Below, one piece after another: positions 19,545 to 59,242 of a stretch of 64,000 nucleotides of DNA. The position numbers and the translations under genes were made by a program. Each line of letters begins with the position of its first letter. Within the stretch, counting starts at the first letter, position 1. Below the pieces are notes generated by a model that saw only the letters and a list, made by a program, of their open reading frames with translations, was not told the DNA's origin and searched no databases. The DNA comes from Arcobacter sp. F2176 (GTDB taxonomy: Bacteria; Campylobacterota; Campylobacteria; Campylobacterales; Arcobacteraceae), in NCBI RefSeq assembly GCF_004116465.1, contig NZ_PDJV01000014.1, positions 1 through 64,000 on the forward strand, given 5' to 3'.

Positions 19545-20684
19545 TTAATCCTTACTTTTACCAAATTCTGCAATTAACGATTCTAAATCATCACTATTAA
19601 GCAAATCATTAGAAGTATCTCCTGGTAGATGAGTAGCACCAGGAAGATTAACGCTATTAGATTCATCATCAAATATAGAGTTTAATTGACGAGATAGATT
19701 TATAACTAGACCCATAACTCGTTCTATTTTTTGTCTGTTTATGTCATGAAATTGCATTAATTCCATTGTTTCAAAAAGTTCTTTATCTCTATTATGAAGT
19801 CTTGTTTGAATTTCTTTTGGCTTTTCAAGAAGCTCTTTTACTGACTCTAAATTTTCTGAAAATTCTTTTACATTTGGAAATTTTTGATTTAACATCTCTA
19901 GCATTTTGTATTGAGATTGAATAAAACTATCTAAAGATTTAGTTGTTTTTCTAAGCTCTTCATTATCTTCTAGAATATAACTTAATGCATCAAATATTTT
20001 AGTTGCCTTTTCTTCTGAGTCGTTAGCAACTTCGCCCAATTGATTAGGGATATTGATTTGTTCAACATTTACTACATTATTCCCTCTTTTTTTGTTTGAA
20101 GGTGTAATTGTTATTTCTGGTTCTTCTGGCTCTTCTTTTAGATCAATTTTATCAATTTCATCAATTGATTCTGCATCAAAGTTAAGATCTAAATCTTTTA
20201 AATAGTCATCATCAGAGGACTCATTCTCAAGATCTTTATCATTTTCTAATCCTGCAATTAAATCATCAATTTCACTTGTATCAACAGTTTCATTACTATC
20301 AGTTTCATTAACAATTTTATTATTTTTTTCATCATTAGAATCAATATTATTAATAAGTGAATCTATTTCCTCACTAGAATCTGAAGATTCTTCTTCAGAC
20401 TCATCTTCTAGTGAATTTAATAAAGCATCAATATCATTATCTGACATTTTTTGAGCATCGTCTGCTTTGTCTTCTGCTTTTTCAGATGTTACATCTGAAT
20501 TATCTTCATCATCTACATTTTTATTTGATAAATTTGTTTCTGCAATTAAATTTGCAATATCATCTTCAGACATGTTTTCAGAATCATTTTCATCCGAGGA
20601 TGTATCATCACTTGTAGAACTTTCATTTTCAGAGATATCTAATCCATTCATTAAGGCTTCGATTTCTTCTTGACTCATACTCAT
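19545..20684 (-). CDS. cheZ: CheZ-like CheY-P phosphatase with repeated FliM-type docking motifs
   Basis: CheZ removes phosphate from CheY-P and resets the motor signal. In this 379-residue protein the C-terminal third is a helical CheZ-type domain with MQFHDINRQKIERV; Asp314 and Gln318 match the catalytic DxxxQ pair of CheZ. Residues 1-190 are very acidic, probably disordered, and hold five motifs like the CheY-P-binding N-terminus of FliM: MSQEEIEALMNGL (3-15), MSEDDIANLIAET (38-50), MSDNDIDALLNSL (80-92), SSEEIDSLINNI (103-114) and TSEIDDLIAGL (136-146). A sixth, SDDLESLIAEF (364-374), is at the C-terminus, where E. coli CheZ binds CheY. It lies 20 bp after cheY. Docking by the motifs is inferred. 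Confidence 0.8.
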   Translation of the reverse strand: MSMSQEEIEALMNGLDISENESSTSDDTSSDENDSENMSEDDIANLIAETNLSNKNVDDEDNSDVTSEKAEDKADDAQKMSDNDIDALLNSLEDESEEESSDSSEEIDSLINNIDSNDEKNNKIVNETDSNETVDTSEIDDLIAGLENDKDLENESSDDDYLKDLDLNFDAESIDEIDKIDLKEEPEEPEITITPSNKKRGNNVVNVEQINIPNQLGEVANDSEEKATKIFDALSYILEDNEELRKTTKSLDSFIQSQYKMLEMLNQKFPNVKEFSENLESVKELLEKPKEIQTRLHNRDKELFETMELMQFHDINRQKIERVMGLVINLSRQLNSIFDDESNSVNLPGATHLPGDTSNDLLNSDDLESLIAEFGKSKD

Positions 20685-22473: not shown

Positions 22474-23754
22474 ATGGCAGAAAATAAAGAAAAAACTGAA
22501 GCAGAACTTTTAGAAGAAACTATGCAAAACTTAGGTTTAGAAGAAGTTCTTGACGAAAAGAAAAGTGAAGATTTATTAGTTGAGGGAAGAAAGTCTTCTC
22601 TTTCCGATGAAGAGATAGAATCTTTAATAAGAGATGACGATCCTTCAGAAGATGAAGAAGTAATAGAAGAGATTCAAAGTAATAGTAATGAACCTAAATC
22701 TACAAATTCAAATGAAGATGAAATTTCACCTGTTGATGATATTAACTTAAATAATGCATCCACTAATTATGGTGAAGATATTGAATTAAATGAAGAACTT
22801 CCAATTCAGAAAAAACAAAATAAATTTATCAAAATACTTACAATAGCAGTTTCAATATTATTATCTTTAGTTTCAATTGGTGCAGTACTTTATTTAATTG
22901 GAGTTTTTGATCCAGAGCCTGTTGTAAAGCAACCAAAAGCACAAGAAGCTAAAGTTCAAAAAGAAGAGTACCAATTTACACCAAATGATATTGATGCAAA
23001 TAGATTAAACAAAAAACTAAATCTTTTAACAAAATATGAAATAGTTGAAAATTCTACTACAGAAGAACAAAAAGCTCAAGAGAAAGAGAATTTGTACCTT
23101 GAAGCAAAAAAACAACTAGAAATGGAAAGATTAGCAAAAATTGAAAAAATAAAAGAAGCTGAAAGAAAAAGAATGGAAGAAGTACTTCCTGCAATTAAGA
23201 AAGAAAATATTGATGAAAATATTGATAAACAAATAGATAATGTTATCACAACAAAAGATGATACAAAAGAAGGAGAAAATGTACCTACAGATAGTTCAGA
23301 TAAAGTTGATGAAAATACTAATCAAGAAACAGAACAACCAACTCTAACAACAGATACGCCAAATGAAGAAACAAAAGTAACTACAAATGCTCAAGTAGAA
23401 TCAAATAAAGCAGAAGAGACAACTCCTTCAATTGAAGATACTACAAAAGAAAATGAAGTTGTGAAAGTAGAACCTGAAATAGTTAAAGAGAAGGTAAATC
23501 AGTTTGTAAAAGTTATAAAGATACAAACAAAAAGTAAAGATATCTATAAATCATTTCTTGACAAAGTTTACTCTGTTAATGATAGTATAACATTGTGTAG
23601 GGATTATCAAAATAATGTAGAGATTTTTGTGGGTCCATTCGAAAACGATATAGAAAGAGAAAAAGTTGCTAAAGAATATTTACTTAAATATAATATAAAT
23701 GTAGAGATTTACGACTATACAACTGAAGAATATGATAAAAGATGTAATTACTAG
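22474..23754 (+). CDS. Single-pass membrane protein with cytoplasmic FliM-type motif and SPOR-like C-terminus
   Basis: The 426-residue protein has an acidic N-terminal part of about 115 residues, one membrane helix (about 119-142, ILTIAVSILLSLVSIGAVLY), a long Lys/Glu/Thr-rich linker to about residue 340, and a C-terminal domain (FVKVIKIQTKSKDIYKSFLD, then EIFVGPFEND) resembling a SPOR peptidoglycan-binding fold. By charge the N-terminus is cytoplasmic. It contains SLSDEEIESLI at residues 42-52, the same type of motif found six times in the CheZ-like protein. It is third in the flgG operon. A bridge between envelope and chemotaxis or motor is an inference. The two stops of this gene and rimM overlap in CTAG. 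Confidence 0.6.
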   Translation: MAENKEKTEAELLEETMQNLGLEEVLDEKKSEDLLVEGRKSSLSDEEIESLIRDDDPSEDEEVIEEIQSNSNEPKSTNSNEDEISPVDDINLNNASTNYGEDIELNEELPIQKKQNKFIKILTIAVSILLSLVSIGAVLYLIGVFDPEPVVKQPKAQEAKVQKEEYQFTPNDIDANRLNKKLNLLTKYEIVENSTTEEQKAQEKENLYLEAKKQLEMERLAKIEKIKEAERKRMEEVLPAIKKENIDENIDKQIDNVITTKDDTKEGENVPTDSSDKVDENTNQETEQPTLTTDTPNEETKVTTNAQVESNKAEETTPSIEDTTKENEVVKVEPEIVKEKVNQFVKVIKIQTKSKDIYKSFLDKVYSVNDSITLCRDYQNNVEIFVGPFENDIEREKVAKEYLLKYNINVEIYDYTTEEYDKRCNY

Positions 23755-43798: not shown

Positions 43799-46700
43799 TT
43801 ACACATCAGGAGTAACTGAAACATCATCGTCAATTAAGACTTTTACATTTGAACCACCAACGGTTCCTTGATAAACATGGAATGTTTCTCCTGTATCACT
43901 TACATAATCAGCTTGTTGCGACCATTTTGCATCTCCACCTTCAAGAGTAACTTTATCATCACTATCACCAAAGATTTTTAACTCATTGTTATTATCTGTC
44001 ATATCTAAAATATCATCTAGATTTATATTCATTTCTTGCGCATGATTATTAGTTAAATCTATATTTTCGATATTTTTTATCTCTGTATGTTTTAAAACCT
44101 CTTCTAAATCAATTGTATCATTATTCATAACTAGTGTATCATTTCCTTCTCCACCATCAATTGATTTTTCCGTTCCATTAAATACAATAGTATCATCACC
44201 TGCACCTGCATCAATAATATCAGCACCACCTTTTCCATCTATATGTTCATTGGCAGCAGTTCCGGTGATGGTATTTGCATTTTCATCACCCTCAATTGAA
44301 ATTTTTGCAGATGTTGTTACAGTTGATTGAGCATCATTTTCTGATTCTGTTGATGTTACACTCGCAGTCATTGAATTAACTTCGCTTGACTCTAAATGTT
44401 TTGTAGAAACAAAGGTAAATTCTTCTTCTTTTCCCTCTTCAATTGGTAACTGAACTGTTCCACCACTTACATCATATACATTTCCACTACTATCTTTAAC
44501 AGATGTTATAGTATCAGGAATATTATCTAGTGTTACTTTTGATAAAGATTCACTTCCATCAACATCAGATAACAGTGCAGCTAATGTAATAGTATAATTA
44601 TATACTGTTGTAGATAATGGTGAAGTATTAAATACACTAGCATCTCCTTTAACTACTCCATCACTACATTTAATATTTTCGAAATTTGAAATTTTATCTC
44701 GAATATTATCTTCATTTTTATAATAATCATTAATTGTGTAACCTTTTAAGTATATAGAATCAGTTCCATCTCCTCCATCTATTGTTGCCCATCCAATATT
44801 TCCAACTTTATCTCCAATAGTAATGAAATCATTTCCAGAACCTAAATCAACTCCACCATAATTAATATCATCACCAATATTAACTACATCATCACCTCCA
44901 AAAGTTTTTAATCCATCCCATCCATATAAATCATTTTCTATATTTATATGATTATCATTATCTCCATAGAATGCTTTTGAACTTGAATTATAAACATTAT
45001 AGTCATATTCATTTGTTATAGAAATAGATCCATTATCTTCTACATTAAAAGACAAACTTGGTGTACTTGCAATATTATCAATAGTATTTGTAATATTAAT
45101 ATTTACATCAAAACTTGTAGTATCCCCATCTTCATCACTTGCATTAACAGTAAATGATTCTTTATCTTCAACTACATCTTTATTTGTACCACTGTAACTA
45201 TATTCACCTGTTTCAAAATTAAATTTAAGTGTTCCACCTGCACTTGTATTAAGAGATAAAACATTATCAGTTGCCTCAGATACATTATGAGTAACACCAT
45301 CAACTACAATAGAATCAATTGTTATCTTACCATCCCCACCTGTAATATTATCTGATACATCTCCATGTATAGTTGATTCAACAGTATTTTGTAGAGTTAC
45401 ATCCAAATCATCTGCATCATTTACAATAATTACATCATTATCTGAGTTAGATATTTCTTCTAAATAAGTAGTTAATGAATTATTCCCAATCCCAATAGAA
45501 TATGCTTTATCAAAACCTAAATCTTTCCATTGTGCTGCAATATCATCATTTACAGAATAAGTATCATGTCCATTACCATGTCTATAGTATGTACCATTAT
45601 ATTCACTCATTCCATATGTTGGTTTTCCATCAGATACAAAATAAGAAATAGTTTCTCCATTTAGTGGTGCTGGATTCTGTTCTAAACTATCAATTACTTT
45701 TAATAATGCATCATCATAATTAGTTCCACCATTTGCTTGTAAGTTATTTATTAAACTTATTGCATCATTTGCATCTAACCAAACATCACCATTACTTGAT
45801 AGAGTATTACCATAATCACCAAATGTTGTAAGTAAAACTTTTACATTACCTGCACCATCATAGTTATTTATCATATTAATAATTGATTGTTTTGCAAGTG
45901 ATAATTTATTATCATAATTCATGCTATTAGATATATCTATAGTAATTGCAAGATTTACATTTACTTGTCCAAAATCCAATGTTTTTGAGTCATCACTACT
46001 ATACAGTAAGGCATCACTATCAGTTGTTTCTTTATAGTTTGTTCCATCTTCATTATCATTTGTTTCTGTTGCTCTTGCTGTGATACCTAAATCTATATTT
46101 TCTGTTCCTTTTGGAACTGTCATTTTGATGCTATCACTTATATCTTTTGTACCATCAGGTAAATTAACAGTCCATGTTCCATCATTATTATTTGTTAATG
46201 TATAAGATGAATTTGAAGAAGTAAATTCTGCACCTTCTGGAACATTTGTTATTGTAACTGTTAAACTTTCACTTCCATCAACATCATTTAGTGCTGCATT
46301 AAAATCAACATTATAATTTTCAGTTGTTTCTATAGTTCCACTATCTTTATCTGATTCAAATACGACATTTTCAATATTTTTTACAACAAATTTAGACCCT
46401 TGTAAAGTACCATTTCCATCAACTTCATATATTGTAAACTCTTTGTTTGCATAACCTTCTGGGTGTTTATTCATTTGAGCATATTCTTCCCAGCTAATTA
46501 AGTTGTCTTCTCCACCATCAACACCAACTGATACTTTATAATCTTCCATTTTTCCAGAAAAGTGAAGAGTGTCTTGACCTTTTCCACCGTCAATTACTGT
46601 ATTTATATTAAAGTTTACATCACTATCTGAAGATAAATTGATAGTATCATTTCCATCTCCTAAATCAACTTTTGTATCTTGTACATTTCCATTAAACTGT

Positions 46701-49700
46701 ACAATATCATCACCTGCACCTGTTGATATAGTATTGGCATCACTATTATTTCCGACAATTAAAGTATCGTTTCCACTACCTGTACTCACATTACTTCTAT
46801 TTAATGATTCACCTACACTTATAGTATTGTCTCCATCACCTAAATTTACAGTTGTTTCATTTGTTCCTTGATTTACAATAAATGTATCATCACCTAAACC
46901 AGCTTGTGTTGAACCTTGATTTAGACTTCCTGCAACTGTATAAGTATTATCACCTTCACCTAATTGAATATTTGCACTTGAACTTTGATTAACAACTACT
47001 TTATCATCTCCATCTCCAGTGTTGATATTTTTTCCATTATTTAAACTTTGGAATTCTAATGTGTCATTTCCTTTATCTGTAGTTATACTTGATGCATTTA
47101 CATTTTGATAATCTTTTACAATATTATCTGTTCCATCATAATTAAAATTACTATCTAAATTTCCATCTTTACCTGTACCTTCATGTAGTGCTTGTAATAC
47201 ATCTAAACTATCAGAATTTGAATTTCCACTTCCATTTCCACCTTGGTTATGTTCACCACTTGTAGACTCAATTTTTGTAACATCAATACTTGCATTTGGC
47301 GCATCTGCAACTGCTTTAATATTTATATCAGTTTTATAATCTACATCTTTAAAGTTTTCATTTCCATCACCAATTTGGAATTTAAAACTTGCATCATTAT
47401 CACTATCTTCTTTTGGAACATATATTAAGTTTCCAGCTGCAACATTTGCTAAAGATACTACTTGTCCTGAATTAACTTCAATCTGAGTATCTTTAGATAC
47501 AACATGTTTATTACCATTTGCATCAATTATTGTTTCACCTTCATGAACAGTCAAATACAAAATACCTTCACTTGGAATTTCTGTAATTTTAAACTCTTTT
47601 ACTCCAGTACCAATATCACCAAAATCAGTCTCAGTTAATACATAAGTTTGATCTTCGTTTATATTAATAACATCATCAGTTGAACTAAAATCATCTGTAA
47701 ATGAACCACTTAAATCAAAAGATTCACTAGCACTATTAACTTTTTCATAATTTCCGCCAATAACTTCTTTTACCTGAATATCAACTTTTGATAAATCAGG
47801 GAAGTCTTTTGCATCAAGTGAAAGAGAACCTCTTCCTGTAGCATTTAAATCTACTTCATACTCTTGTCCATTAACTTCTACAATTGCTGTTGCTTTTCCT
47901 TGAGGAGGATAATCTTCATCAATTTGAATATTAAATGTAATTTTCCCATCTGTTGTACTAATATTTGTAACCTCAGGGTCAATTACTTCTGTATATGATA
48001 TTTCATGTATCAAATAATCATCATCATATCCTGGTGCACTAAACTCGACTTTATCGAATGCTACTGGATTACCAGTAGCATCAGGGAACTCAAATGTATA
48101 TGATAAATCAACTCTGTCTGTTCCCCCTTGTGCGGGAACTTCTTTTATTAAATTATTATTCATATCAAAATATCTAACAACAGCATCTACATCACTACCA
48201 CCACCTGAAACAGTTGCATAACCTATTCGTTCACCATCATTTGAAAAAGTGATTTGTGCAGTTTCTTGATTGTTTCTCCATGCAAAGGCAACATCTACTG
48301 AGTCTACATCATTAGTGAAATCAAAAACTACTTTTTCACTAACTCCATTAGAACCATGTCCTATCTCTGAATTTGCTCCAGAACCATCAGTATTTCCTTG
48401 AACACCAAATCCATCATGATTTGTTCCTTTTACAACAGATAAATTACCTTCATTGCCATTTACATCATATGCAGTAACTTTAATGCCTGTACTTTCACCA
48501 AATTCTGTATCAACATCTATAATCTTTGGTGCAGTTGCAACTGCTGTAATTGTGATATCGATAGGAGTTATTGTATCAGCTATATCTGCTGTTACTGTAT
48601 TTGTAGAAGGTGTTAATTTCTCAAAGTTTCCACCCTCTACACTTGTAATTGAATTATCTAATGTACTTGCATCTTTATATACATCTTCTGTATTTGGATT
48701 TGTTACTTCTAGTGTTCCTGTACTTCCTTCAGTAATTGTAATATCACCAAGTTTTGTATGTATTACTACTGGTGTATCACCTGCTACTACTGGGTTTGAC
48801 AAGGTTGCTGTAAATGTTACTGTTCCTGCTGCCTCATTTGTATCTGTTGCACTTAAACTTACTGTTGTCTCATCAGGCGTTGTCTCTGTTACAGTTGTTG
48901 TTGCTGTATCACTTGTATTTAGGTTTTCATAATTTCCACCAGTAGTTCCTGTGATTGATACTGTCTGTGTTTTTCCATCTGTTTGTCCATATACATCATC
49001 AGCACTTGCTACTGTTACACTTCCAGTAGTTTCTCCAGCTTTAATTGTTATCTCTGATCCATTACTTAATGTGATTACTAAATCTGTCTCTGGTTTATGA
49101 TCTACACTTGCAGTATATGTTATATCTTCACCTGCTTGTACACTTTGTGTTGCAGTAAGTGTTACTGTTGTATCATCTATTGTATCAGCTATATCTGCTG
49201 TTACTGTATTTGTAGAAGGTGTTAATTTCTCAAAGTTTCCACCCTCTACACTTGTAATTGAATTATCTAATGTACTTGCATCTTTATATACATCTTCTGT
49301 ATTTGGATTTGTTACTTCTAGTGTTCCTGTACTTCCTTCAGTAATTGTAATATCACCAAGTTTTGTATGTATTACTACTGGTGTATCACCTGCTACTACT
49401 GGGTTTGACAAGGTTGCTGTAAATGTTACTGTTCCTGCTGCCTCATTTGTATCTGTTGCACTTAAACTTACTGTTGATGTTACTGTAGTTGATGGAGAAA
49501 CTGATGTTCCGGTATCTTCTGGATCGTTTGGAGTAGGAGTACCTCCTGTTCCAGGTACATTTAATATTGATCTTGTTGTTCTAAATCCATCAGGTCTTTC
49601 TCCTGGATTTAAATCTAAAGGAATATCATTATCTGTAGCATTTGGAGTAGTAGACGAATCTGAAAGTACTTCTCCTGCTGCTGATGCTTCCATTGCACTT

Positions 49701-50119
49701 GCTAAAGAACCAAAGTCATCAATTATAACCCCATATGGTTTATCTGCATTAGCTAAATTTTCATCAAATCGAGCTTCTAAATCTTTTATAATATCATCAC
49801 TTTTAAAATCAGGGTTTAAAACTGTTTCTTTTAAATCAGTCACTCCCTCTTTGTCATAAATTACTGAAAGTACAGTCTTATTTACTTCACCATTTGATTT
49901 AATAAGATCGGCCATTCCATTAAAAGTTAATTTTAATTTTGGATTAGTACCTAAAGTCAATTGAATTGTACTCTCTCCATCAATCAAATTTAGAGCATAT
50001 CCAGGATTTTTAGAATTATCTAAAAAATATTGTTCACCTTCTTTTGGAGTAAAAGTTGTATTTTTGTTAACTTCTATTTCTCTATAACTTCCATTTGGTT
50101 GTTTAATAATCAGATTCAT
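43799..50119 (-). CDS. Giant type I secreted RTX/vWA adhesin (LapA-like layout)
   Basis: This 2106-residue protein looks like a surface adhesin. There is no Sec signal. Residues 1-145 form a compact N-terminal module that could plug the exporter pore, followed by SAAG (146-149), like LapG protease sites, and a Thr/Pro linker. Three Ig-like modules follow; two (about 214-314 and 417-517) are identical. Next come cadherin-like repeats (near 810), RTX nonapeptides of GDGDNTISVG type (1020-1156), a von Willebrand A domain (about 1383-1583) with its DISNS metal site, more RTX repeats and a T1SS secretion signal in the last 100 residues. The exporter genes lie just upstream. The ligand is unknown. 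Confidence 0.9.
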   Translation of the reverse strand: MNLIIKQPNGSYREIEVNKNTTFTPKEGEQYFLDNSKNPGYALNLIDGESTIQLTLGTNPKLKLTFNGMADLIKSNGEVNKTVLSVIYDKEGVTDLKETVLNPDFKSDDIIKDLEARFDENLANADKPYGVIIDDFGSLASAMEASAAGEVLSDSSTTPNATDNDIPLDLNPGERPDGFRTTRSILNVPGTGGTPTPNDPEDTGTSVSPSTTVTSTVSLSATDTNEAAGTVTFTATLSNPVVAGDTPVVIHTKLGDITITEGSTGTLEVTNPNTEDVYKDASTLDNSITSVEGGNFEKLTPSTNTVTADIADTIDDTTVTLTATQSVQAGEDITYTASVDHKPETDLVITLSNGSEITIKAGETTGSVTVASADDVYGQTDGKTQTVSITGTTGGNYENLNTSDTATTTVTETTPDETTVSLSATDTNEAAGTVTFTATLSNPVVAGDTPVVIHTKLGDITITEGSTGTLEVTNPNTEDVYKDASTLDNSITSVEGGNFEKLTPSTNTVTADIADTITPIDITITAVATAPKIIDVDTEFGESTGIKVTAYDVNGNEGNLSVVKGTNHDGFGVQGNTDGSGANSEIGHGSNGVSEKVVFDFTNDVDSVDVAFAWRNNQETAQITFSNDGERIGYATVSGGGSDVDAVVRYFDMNNNLIKEVPAQGGTDRVDLSYTFEFPDATGNPVAFDKVEFSAPGYDDDYLIHEISYTEVIDPEVTNISTTDGKITFNIQIDEDYPPQGKATAIVEVNGQEYEVDLNATGRGSLSLDAKDFPDLSKVDIQVKEVIGGNYEKVNSASESFDLSGSFTDDFSSTDDVININEDQTYVLTETDFGDIGTGVKEFKITEIPSEGILYLTVHEGETIIDANGNKHVVSKDTQIEVNSGQVVSLANVAAGNLIYVPKEDSDNDASFKFQIGDGNENFKDVDYKTDINIKAVADAPNASIDVTKIESTSGEHNQGGNGSGNSNSDSLDVLQALHEGTGKDGNLDSNFNYDGTDNIVKDYQNVNASSITTDKGNDTLEFQSLNNGKNINTGDGDDKVVVNQSSSANIQLGEGDNTYTVAGSLNQGSTQAGLGDDTFIVNQGTNETTVNLGDGDNTISVGESLNRSNVSTGSGNDTLIVGNNSDANTISTGAGDDIVQFNGNVQDTKVDLGDGNDTINLSSDSDVNFNINTVIDGGKGQDTLHFSGKMEDYKVSVGVDGGEDNLISWEEYAQMNKHPEGYANKEFTIYEVDGNGTLQGSKFVVKNIENVVFESDKDSGTIETTENYNVDFNAALNDVDGSESLTVTITNVPEGAEFTSSNSSYTLTNNNDGTWTVNLPDGTKDISDSIKMTVPKGTENIDLGITARATETNDNEDGTNYKETTDSDALLYSSDDSKTLDFGQVNVNLAITIDISNSMNYDNKLSLAKQSIINMINNYDGAGNVKVLLTTFGDYGNTLSSNGDVWLDANDAISLINNLQANGGTNYDDALLKVIDSLEQNPAPLNGETISYFVSDGKPTYGMSEYNGTYYRHGNGHDTYSVNDDIAAQWKDLGFDKAYSIGIGNNSLTTYLEEISNSDNDVIIVNDADDLDVTLQNTVESTIHGDVSDNITGGDGKITIDSIVVDGVTHNVSEATDNVLSLNTSAGGTLKFNFETGEYSYSGTNKDVVEDKESFTVNASDEDGDTTSFDVNINITNTIDNIASTPSLSFNVEDNGSISITNEYDYNVYNSSSKAFYGDNDNHINIENDLYGWDGLKTFGGDDVVNIGDDINYGGVDLGSGNDFITIGDKVGNIGWATIDGGDGTDSIYLKGYTINDYYKNEDNIRDKISNFENIKCSDGVVKGDASVFNTSPLSTTVYNYTITLAALLSDVDGSESLSKVTLDNIPDTITSVKDSSGNVYDVSGGTVQLPIEEGKEEEFTFVSTKHLESSEVNSMTASVTSTESENDAQSTVTTSAKISIEGDENANTITGTAANEHIDGKGGADIIDAGAGDDTIVFNGTEKSIDGGEGNDTLVMNNDTIDLEEVLKHTEIKNIENIDLTNNHAQEMNINLDDILDMTDNNNELKIFGDSDDKVTLEGGDAKWSQQADYVSDTGETFHVYQGTVGGSNVKVLIDDDVSVTPDV
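48569..48867. repeat. 299-bp direct repeat in the adhesin gene, copy 2
   Basis: This stretch and 49178-49476 read the same base for base as far as I can compare, at a constant offset of 609 bp. They encode the same Ig-like module of about 99 residues. The 310 bp between them encode a different module. Confidence 0.85.
49178..49476. repeat. 299-bp direct repeat in the adhesin gene, copy 1
   Basis: Partner of 48569-48867. Offset is a multiple of three, so recombination between copies would delete or add two modules in frame. Confidence 0.85.
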
Positions 50120-55449: not shown

Positions 55450-56922
55450 TTAATTATCAGTCTTGACATCATTGAGATGTTTTTTATTTTTCTCTTCTGA
55501 TAACTTAAATGATTCTATTATAGAACTATCTGTATCACTTATCAAACTATCTAAATCTTCTTGTGTACTCTTATTTTGTTTATCTGGTTCATACTCTATT
55601 ATTCTTGGTTTTATCTCTTCACAGTTTTGATTCTTTGATTCTAATACATTATCTGTCAATGATGAAAAATTGTACATCAATTGATAATAATTTACTATTC
55701 TATTATATTCTATTTCTATTAATGTTTTTACTGATTCAAATAACTCATCTTGTGCATTTAATATATCTATAAAGGTTCTTGTCCCTGCTGAAAATTGCTC
55801 TTTATATATATCTACTATATTTGTATTTGCTTTTACATACTCTTCTATCTCATTTATTCTTGCTTTATATCTCTCATTTTTCCCATACAATGATTTTACA
55901 TTTGAAACTATCTCTCCTGTAATATCGTCAAGATTCTTCTTCTCTTCATTTAGAAATATCTTCTCTTGTTCTGTTGCTATTTTATTTTTATTCCCATTAT
56001 ACAAATTCCAGTTAAGGTTCAATCTTGCTGCAACATTTTTTGTTGTTCCATCTCCTAACAAATCTATATCTTTATCATATGATGCTCTTAATTCAAAGTT
56101 TAACTTTGGTAAAAACTCCCCTTTTGCTTGTGCTATCTTCTCTCTTTGTGCTTTTATCTTCTCTATTTGTTCTTTTATTTTACTATTATTTAATACTGCC
56201 CGTTTCACAGCATCTTCTATTGTTTTTGGTACTTTTTTCTCATCTATTATTGGTCTACAAACCCTTCCTTTTGGCTCTTTCCCTACATATCTTCTATATG
56301 ATGCTATTGCTGTATCTTTTTTATCTTCTTCATCTATATATTTGTTTTTTACCAAATGCAATTTTGACGATACTTGATAAGTCTCTAATATCTCTCCACT
56401 TATCTTCTCATTTTCTTTTGCTATAATCATATTATCTTCATTTACTTTTACCATATTTTTGGTTACTCGTAATATCTCTTCACTTTTTACTAAATCTGTA
56501 TATACTTTTATTGATTCTAACACTGTTGATTCTATTGCATCAAAGCTTCTATATTTATTTGACAAATCCTCGTATCTTGATTGTGCTACTTGCGATGGTG
56601 TTATCCCTCCATCATACAAATATTGTTTTAGAATTAGTGTTGCTAGCATCCCATCTTGTGTCGTCCATTCTCCATCTGTATTTGAACTCTTCCTATCTTT
56701 ATTATCCCTTGATCGTTCTATATATGTCTCTAAATCTAAAGTTGGCAAGTAATTACCCTCTCTATCATCTACATATTTACTGTATCCTTTTTGATTTTCT
56801 AATTCTGCTTGTACTGTTGGATTATTTATTAAAACTTTTGATACTGTATCTTTTAAACTTACAGCATTTAATTCAATTGAGAATAAGGAAAAAGCAAAAA
56901 TAATAAAGAATAGTTTTTTCAT
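55450..56922 (-). CDS. TolC-family outer membrane channel, copy A
   Basis: The outer-membrane duct of a type I system. The 490-residue protein has a signal peptide (residues 1-20, ending LNA) and the OEP fold in two halves: VSLKDTVSKVLINNPTVQAE, later SRYEDLSNKYRSFDAIEST, and AVKRAVLNNSKIKEQIEKIK, RTFIDILNAQDELFESVKTL. A charged tail of about 55 residues follows the last helix, longer than in TolC. From Gln44 to near the stop it is identical to copy B. It lies 85 bp upstream of the exporter gene and is divergent from the regulator gene. Confidence 0.93.
   Translation of the reverse strand: MKKLFFIIFAFSLFSIELNAVSLKDTVSKVLINNPTVQAELENQKGYSKYVDDREGNYLPTLDLETYIERSRDNKDRKSSNTDGEWTTQDGMLATLILKQYLYDGGITPSQVAQSRYEDLSNKYRSFDAIESTVLESIKVYTDLVKSEEILRVTKNMVKVNEDNMIIAKENEKISGEILETYQVSSKLHLVKNKYIDEEDKKDTAIASYRRYVGKEPKGRVCRPIIDEKKVPKTIEDAVKRAVLNNSKIKEQIEKIKAQREKIAQAKGEFLPKLNFELRASYDKDIDLLGDGTTKNVAARLNLNWNLYNGNKNKIATEQEKIFLNEEKKNLDDITGEIVSNVKSLYGKNERYKARINEIEEYVKANTNIVDIYKEQFSAGTRTFIDILNAQDELFESVKTLIEIEYNRIVNYYQLMYNFSSLTDNVLESKNQNCEEIKPRIIEYEPDKQNKSTQEDLDSLISDTDSSIIESFKLSEEKNKKHLNDVKTDN
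55454..56793. repeat. 1340-bp direct repeat shared by the tolC-like genes, copy A
   Basis: No difference from 57771-59110 was found in the parts compared, at a constant offset of 2317 bp with no gap; synonymous positions are also the same. Identity stops sharply at both ends inside the two genes. Confidence 0.9.
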
Positions 56923-57757: not shown

Positions 57758-59242
57758 TTACAAAGTTTGTTTATCAGTCTTGACATCATTGAGATGTTTT
57801 TTATTTTTCTCTTCTGATAACTTAAATGATTCTATTATAGAACTATCTGTATCACTTATCAAACTATCTAAATCTTCTTGTGTACTCTTATTTTGTTTAT
57901 CTGGTTCATACTCTATTATTCTTGGTTTTATCTCTTCACAGTTTTGATTCTTTGATTCTAATACATTATCTGTCAATGATGAAAAATTGTACATCAATTG
58001 ATAATAATTTACTATTCTATTATATTCTATTTCTATTAATGTTTTTACTGATTCAAATAACTCATCTTGTGCATTTAATATATCTATAAAGGTTCTTGTC
58101 CCTGCTGAAAATTGCTCTTTATATATATCTACTATATTTGTATTTGCTTTTACATACTCTTCTATCTCATTTATTCTTGCTTTATATCTCTCATTTTTCC
58201 CATACAATGATTTTACATTTGAAACTATCTCTCCTGTAATATCGTCAAGATTCTTCTTCTCTTCATTTAGAAATATCTTCTCTTGTTCTGTTGCTATTTT
58301 ATTTTTATTCCCATTATACAAATTCCAGTTAAGGTTCAATCTTGCTGCAACATTTTTTGTTGTTCCATCTCCTAACAAATCTATATCTTTATCATATGAT
58401 GCTCTTAATTCAAAGTTTAACTTTGGTAAAAACTCCCCTTTTGCTTGTGCTATCTTCTCTCTTTGTGCTTTTATCTTCTCTATTTGTTCTTTTATTTTAC
58501 TATTATTTAATACTGCCCGTTTCACAGCATCTTCTATTGTTTTTGGTACTTTTTTCTCATCTATTATTGGTCTACAAACCCTTCCTTTTGGCTCTTTCCC
58601 TACATATCTTCTATATGATGCTATTGCTGTATCTTTTTTATCTTCTTCATCTATATATTTGTTTTTTACCAAATGCAATTTTGACGATACTTGATAAGTC
58701 TCTAATATCTCTCCACTTATCTTCTCATTTTCTTTTGCTATAATCATATTATCTTCATTTACTTTTACCATATTTTTGGTTACTCGTAATATCTCTTCAC
58801 TTTTTACTAAATCTGTATATACTTTTATTGATTCTAACACTGTTGATTCTATTGCATCAAAGCTTCTATATTTATTTGACAAATCCTCGTATCTTGATTG
58901 TGCTACTTGCGATGGTGTTATCCCTCCATCATACAAATATTGTTTTAGAATTAGTGTTGCTAGCATCCCATCTTGTGTCGTCCATTCTCCATCTGTATTT
59001 GAACTCTTCCTATCTTTATTATCCCTTGATCGTTCTATATATGTCTCTAAATCTAAAGTTGGCAAGTAATTACCCTCTCTATCATCTACATATTTACTGT
59101 ATCCTTTTTGTTGTTGCAACTCTGCTTGAATAGTAGGGTTATTAATCATTACAGCAGATACTGTTTCTTTTAAACTTACGGCATTTAAACTTAAATTTAC
59201 AACTAACATTGTAATTAAAAATAAAAAGAATCTATTTTGCAA
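57758..59242 (-). CDS. TolC-family outer membrane channel, copy B
   Basis: A second 494-residue outer-membrane channel gene. Signal peptide and first 43 residues (for example NLSLNAVSLKETVSAVMINN) differ clearly from copy A though they align, whereas the rest is identical up to ...VKTD, after which copy B ends KQTL. Both copies have intact frames and separate promoters. It converges on the regulator gene with 21 bp between stops. Having two channels for one exporter could adjust dose, or one may serve another exporter. Confidence 0.93.
   Translation of the reverse strand: MQNRFFLFLITMLVVNLSLNAVSLKETVSAVMINNPTIQAELQQQKGYSKYVDDREGNYLPTLDLETYIERSRDNKDRKSSNTDGEWTTQDGMLATLILKQYLYDGGITPSQVAQSRYEDLSNKYRSFDAIESTVLESIKVYTDLVKSEEILRVTKNMVKVNEDNMIIAKENEKISGEILETYQVSSKLHLVKNKYIDEEDKKDTAIASYRRYVGKEPKGRVCRPIIDEKKVPKTIEDAVKRAVLNNSKIKEQIEKIKAQREKIAQAKGEFLPKLNFELRASYDKDIDLLGDGTTKNVAARLNLNWNLYNGNKNKIATEQEKIFLNEEKKNLDDITGEIVSNVKSLYGKNERYKARINEIEEYVKANTNIVDIYKEQFSAGTRTFIDILNAQDELFESVKTLIEIEYNRIVNYYQLMYNFSSLTDNVLESKNQNCEEIKPRIIEYEPDKQNKSTQEDLDSLISDTDSSIIESFKLSEEKNKKHLNDVKTDKQTL
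57771..59110. repeat. 1340-bp direct repeat shared by the tolC-like genes, copy B
   Basis: Partner of 55454-56793. The flanks encode related but diverged N-termini, so the identity is newer than the duplication. Recombination between the direct copies would delete the regulator gene. Confidence 0.9.

Follow-up and report, generated by a model that had tools for sequence, protein, structure and literature searches.

A divergent CheZ with an array of putative CheY-docking motifs in the flagellar gene cluster of Arcobacter sp. F2176

In silico analysis of the window (the whole 64,000-nucleotide stretch of contig NZ_PDJV01000014.1 of Arcobacter sp. F2176, a member of the Arcobacteraceae) distinguished a divergent CheZ carrying six FliM-type CheY-docking motifs. 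Five of them are spread over the N-terminal half, which is acidic and modelled with low confidence, and the sixth is C-terminal, so that they flank the catalytic residues Asp314 and Gln318. On balance, we regard this protein as probably a CheZ-type phosphatase with a multivalent docking arm that acts as an antenna for phosphorylated CheY (CheY-P), in which several signal molecules are probably held at once beside the active site. This reading is built on what was observed or computed: the CheZ identity, the motif array, the predicted helices, the selection on the motifs, their family-wide spread and the conserved CheY partner. The gene, its neighbour and its conserved core comprise:

19545..20684, minus strand: cheZ, encoding the motif-array CheZ; intact ORF of 379 aa with a match to NCBIfam NF041271
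20705..21076, minus strand: cheY, directly upstream of cheZ; PF00072 7e-29
19668..20051, minus strand: helical hairpin of the CheZ core (residues 212-339), made of two long helices with pLDDT mostly >89
19731..19745, minus strand: catalytic DxxxQ, Asp314 and Gln318, placed by alignment

The cheZ gene sits inside a flagellar gene cluster, immediately downstream of cheY, and a start common to its relatives gives a 379-aa protein beginning with MSMSQEEIEALMNGLD. The same order was found at 46 relative loci, in which cheY is located 3-46 bases upstream of cheZ. Both genes are likely to be carried on the same transcript, and the product of this cheY is likely the main ligand of CheZ.

The encoded protein is a divergent CheZ. 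It matches NF041271 (Phos_CheZ) with an E value of 9e-32 and 110 bits, which is below the curated cut-off of 350, and its DxxxQ lines up with those of the E. coli and Helicobacter-type CheZs; Asp314 and Gln318 are invariant in 29 relatives (family alignment). These results bear out the CheZ-like character and the catalytic pair put forward in an earlier note on this DNA, and homology marks the protein as a predicted CheZ-type CheY-P phosphatase. The hairpin helices of the AlphaFold model, which in CheZ dimerize as a four-helix bundle, span residues 212-268 and 273-339, and a Foldseek search of the PDB with the bare hairpin, an uninformative query, returned E. coli CheZ (1KMI) as a weak match at rank 15 (E 1.6). 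Sequence searches of Pfam, PHROGs and the PDB gave nothing useful for the window CheZ, and the FliM domain PF02154 is absent from it (zero matches in the Pfam search); the genome's own FliM, encoded elsewhere (C2:61752-62327), begins MAEFLSQDEIDALL.

The motifs and the linker that carries most of them are located as follows:

20649..20678, minus strand: motif 1, residues 3-12, MSQEEIEALM; profile score 24.7, helix 5-12
20544..20573, minus strand: motif 2, residues 38-47, MSEDDIANLI; profile score 14.3, helix 40-54
20418..20447, minus strand: motif 3, residues 80-89, MSDNDIDALL; profile score 17.2, helix 82-97
20352..20381, minus strand: motif 4, residues 102-111, DSSEEIDSLI; profile score 12.4, helix 106-115
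20256..20285, minus strand: motif 5, residues 134-143, VDTSEIDDLI; profile score 6.1 (weak), helix 137-147
20142..20171, minus strand: possible degenerate motif, residues 172-181, ESIDEIDKID; profile score 2.5 (very weak), helix 172-179
19572..19601, minus strand: C-terminal motif, residues 362-371, LNSDDLESLI; profile score 14.1, helix 364-376
20043..20645, minus strand: linker of residues 14-214, acidic (net charge -55) and modelled with low confidence; pLDDT mostly <50 outside the motif helices

The short helices predicted by AlphaFold largely coincide with the motifs. The stretches that join the N-terminal motif helices mostly have pLDDT <50, which, together with the net charge, agrees with the acidic, probably disordered N-terminal half described previously. 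Motif 1 is near-invariant in Arcobacteraceae and has its equivalent in most CheZs from elsewhere in Campylobacterota, and motif 5 is identical in genome G001 and differs by one residue in G002. The C-terminal motif, which follows a tether with pLDDT <50 and corresponds in position to ASQDQVDDLLDSLGF of E. coli CheZ, is by this correspondence the predicted standard CheZ docking helix. The array proper is composed of the three to four internal motifs.

The motifs were scored with a 10-column profile trained on the N-termini of Campylobacterota FliM proteins together with the motifs at both ends of CheZs from other families; every Arcobacteraceae CheZ was excluded from the training, while Arcobacteraceae FliM was included. 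Since the docking helix of E. coli CheZ (ASQDQVDDLL), taken as a positive control, scores 8.1, five of the six window motifs outscore a true positive, the exception being that at residue 134. The 201-residue linker contains three matches with a score of at least 8, against 0.07 and 0.11 in shuffles keeping composition and dipeptides, respectively (three matches were reached in 0/4000 and 0/1500 of them), and four matches with a score of at least 6, against 0.19 and 0.31. The profile thus recognizes three strong internal motifs and one weak one, and the profile scores and shuffles uphold the earlier count of five N-terminal motifs and one terminal motif. Over all linkers, the true profile gave 93 matches and its reverse 11, while 300 column-permuted profiles gave a median of 2 and at most 28. 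Because the shuffles and the permuted and reversed profiles fall short, the signal is specific to the FliM/CheZ-tail pattern and does not reflect acidic composition. An extended CheZ-tail pattern (hydrophobics at positions 0, 3, 4 and 7; compare VDDLLDSL of E. coli) gave 89 matches against 4 expected and takes in the weak motif 5 (EIDDLIAGL).

What the shuffle and conservation tests reveal is a selected short helix, without naming its binding partner. The internal helices could bind something else, such as a polar localization factor (ChePep, for example), CheA or CheZ itself, their resemblance to FliM being merely that of an acidic amphipathic helix. In H. pylori, ChePep places CheZ at the pole (PMC11237671, PMC7750401), and the N-terminal region of CheZ is of unknown function (PMC11237671), but the internal motifs match the full FliM/CheZ-tail pattern beyond helicity, permuted and reversed profiles fail, and the identical motif type occurs at the C-terminal end, the known CheY-binding site of CheZ. 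We consider a partner other than CheY improbable.

When the genome was scanned for a strict DNA motif, 31 sites turned up, most of them by chance, as the control gave 19; limited to reading frames, the scan picked up FliM, three cheZ sites and the protein encoded at 22474. The latter (22474-23754, plus strand), encoded beside flgG and containing one likely transmembrane segment, carries LSDEEIESLI (residues 43-52, profile score 16.7) in its N-terminal acidic part, and its BM504 orthologue (L083) has LSDEDIESLI; by its sequence it possibly bears a membrane-anchored CheY-docking motif. Farther along the window, two very similar neighbouring proteins of about 490 aa (55450-56922 and 57758-59242, minus strand), with matching antisense ORFs, are probably a recent duplication; together with a nearby 2106-aa ORF (43799-50119) they resemble, as judged from the sequence, components of a secretion locus.

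The array is a family-wide feature. The linkers of 62 Arcobacteraceae CheZs (96-252 aa, mean 153) hold 93 internal motifs, against 2.5-4 expected; at least one is present in 51/62 of the proteins, and 11/62 have none at the profile threshold. The motif number rises with the linker length (Spearman 0.64), and the largest arrays occur in the genus of the window (4 internal motifs in the window CheZ, 5 in that of BM504), which is placed on a long branch of the core tree. At the position of motif 2, near residue 38, 53/62 CheZs have a motif, which is therefore probably ancestral. The Campylobacterota CheZs examined outside Arcobacteraceae contain zero internal motifs in a linker of about 64 aa (mean); in nearly all of them, a TQEELDALM-type motif opens the protein and a SxDDIEALI-type motif closes it.

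In 28 separate pairs of relatives, identity is 83% (278/333) at internal motif positions, against 62% (2405/3878) elsewhere in the linker (odds ratio 3.1); the p value of about 2e-16 is only indicative, since the pairs share no sequence but are linked through the tree. The motifs are thus better conserved than their acidic background, and nearly every internal motif is retained in the paired relative. A codon comparison, underpowered with three genus members, the third of which aligns badly around motif 4, was set aside in favour of this protein test. It follows that drifting, non-functional copies of the N-terminal motif, which would fit the differing copy number among species, are a very improbable source of the array: motif positions outconserve the linker, the motifs are kept in the partner and the place of motif 2 is occupied in most of the family.

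Other CheZ-like proteins were also observed. This genome encodes a second, short one (G000:C29:8883-9269; L049 884-1270, plus strand), of 128 aa or less, with IQEEDIFRQKLERV and a C-terminal ISQEDIDKMF, whose gene is convergent with a chemoreceptor gene; its relatives in other genera (L051, L052) have both terminal docking motifs. Outside Campylobacterota, CheZ-like proteins were found in Desulfurellales (L133, L134). The N-terminal MSQNEIDDLI of L133 suggests that the N-terminal CheZ motif is older than the phylum.

In the mechanism that we propose, each motif would form a short helix binding the alpha4-beta5-alpha5 face of CheY-P, by analogy with the FliM N-terminus, whose EIDALL helix docks in a groove of CheY alpha4/alpha5 (PMC9126983), and with the tethered tail helix of E. 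coli CheZ, which provides the main affinity for CheY-P while catalysis takes place at a separate site (PMC1447658). Docking on this face would keep the phosphorylated Asp accessible to the DxxxQ of the same flexible chain or of the dimer partner. The arm would concentrate CheY-P locally around the phosphatase, more CheY-P would be captured, and the arm and FliM would rival each other for the same CheY face. We infer CheY binding by each motif, a preference for the phosphorylated form and an effect on motor switching. In H. pylori, N-terminal deletions of CheZ leave the phosphatase and biofilm function unimpaired (PMC11237671), and the N-terminal motif is therefore dispensable for catalysis there, which speaks against a strong role of motif 1.

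The arm may also join several CheY-P molecules and CheZ dimers in one larger complex; bridging of CheZ dimers by CheY-P has been proposed in E. coli (PMC1447658). A stronger version, in which multivalent docking driven by CheY-P builds large CheZ/CheY-P clusters that terminate the signal in a switch-like manner, with a sharpness evolving via the motif number, is conceivable, although we hold it to be rather unlikely.

The earlier note had proposed a sponge or sink for CheY-P. The motif array on which that proposal relied stands; however, we favour an antenna that supplies the catalytic site of its own chain over a pure sponge, since bound CheY-P would be hydrolysed and not stored. As a buffer, the array would mainly hold CheY, in either phosphorylation state, out of reach of FliM and set its free level, with dephosphorylation secondary. 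The FliM-like chemistry of the motifs and their increase with linker length are in line with such storage, but the conserved DxxxQ lies on the same chain, and the effect would need a CheZ abundance near that of CheY. Sequence alone cannot separate the two readings, and we judge storage as the main role to be unlikely.

The presumed ligand is well conserved: the alpha4-beta5-alpha5 segment of CheY is near-invariant across 23 Arcobacteraceae rows, and the closest solved relatives of the window CheY are those of H. pylori (3gwg/3h1g). A single-chain model of a CheY-CheZ read-through fusion from relative L116 gave motif helices with pLDDT of about 50; with its shallow alignment, it says little for or against docking. 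Arcobacter lost the F3 chemosensory class and took up F7, retaining the F3-derived cheYZ in the main flagellar locus; its lineage has five CheYs, of which CheYz is predicted to bind FliM (PMC9321776). The window CheY is CheYz. A second CheY (G000:C4:43746-44111; L205), encoded next to a transporter-like gene, is 63% identical to CheYz and has the same docking-face sequence, NNYIVKPFNA.

Given this class exchange and the five CheYs, CheZ may gather several CheYs, with separate motifs serving separate receiver-domain proteins. The very similar alpha4-beta5-alpha5 of the second CheY would suit such a hub, as would the presence of the array in the class-swapping family and its absence from the other Campylobacterota examined. 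Nevertheless, most other Arcobacter CheYs are without the residues for this docking mode (PMC9321776), and the motifs form no clearly different classes; we give the hub little credence, and keep to an antenna for CheY-P as the preferred reading.

Docking of CheY is classically a one-peptide interaction. A selected, putative docking array of variable length on a phosphatase would thus make valency an evolvable setting of chemotaxis, and the motif number can be altered without touching catalysis. The array also suggests what part of the N-terminal region of Campylobacterota CheZ, a region described as being of unknown function in H. pylori (PMC11237671), may do. In the literature searched, which did not extend to the original reports on CheZ and ChePep of H. 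pylori, no paper describes such a CheZ motif array. The view of the earlier note that the array is unusual holds for the three to four internal motifs, which are, as far as these papers show, the new and undescribed part of the window CheZ. It does not extend to the C-terminal motif, an ordinary CheZ tail helix (PMC1447658), nor to the N-terminal motif, which by sequence appears general in Campylobacterota CheZs and may already be known in the primary literature.

Among known systems, the Helicobacter-type CheZ (NF041271) shares with the window CheZ the homologous core, the DxxxQ, the C-terminal docking motif and the N-terminal FliM-like TQEELDALM, but its linker is short (mean 64 aa, against 153 in Arcobacteraceae) and without internal motifs. 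E. coli CheZ (PDB 1KMI) likewise has DxxxQ on a helical hairpin and a C-terminal helix on a flexible tether; it differs in having one docking motif and no N-terminal FliM-type motif, and its sequence similarity is very low. The N-terminal CheY-binding peptide of FliM (EIDALL; PDB 1F4V) is the same short linear motif, although present as a single copy on a motor protein without a phosphatase. In the two-step binding of FliM/FliN(Y), the rotor and not a phosphatase serves as the second site, and each chain has one peptide; as proposed for the window CheZ, the docking peptide raises the local CheY-P for the second site (PMC9126983).
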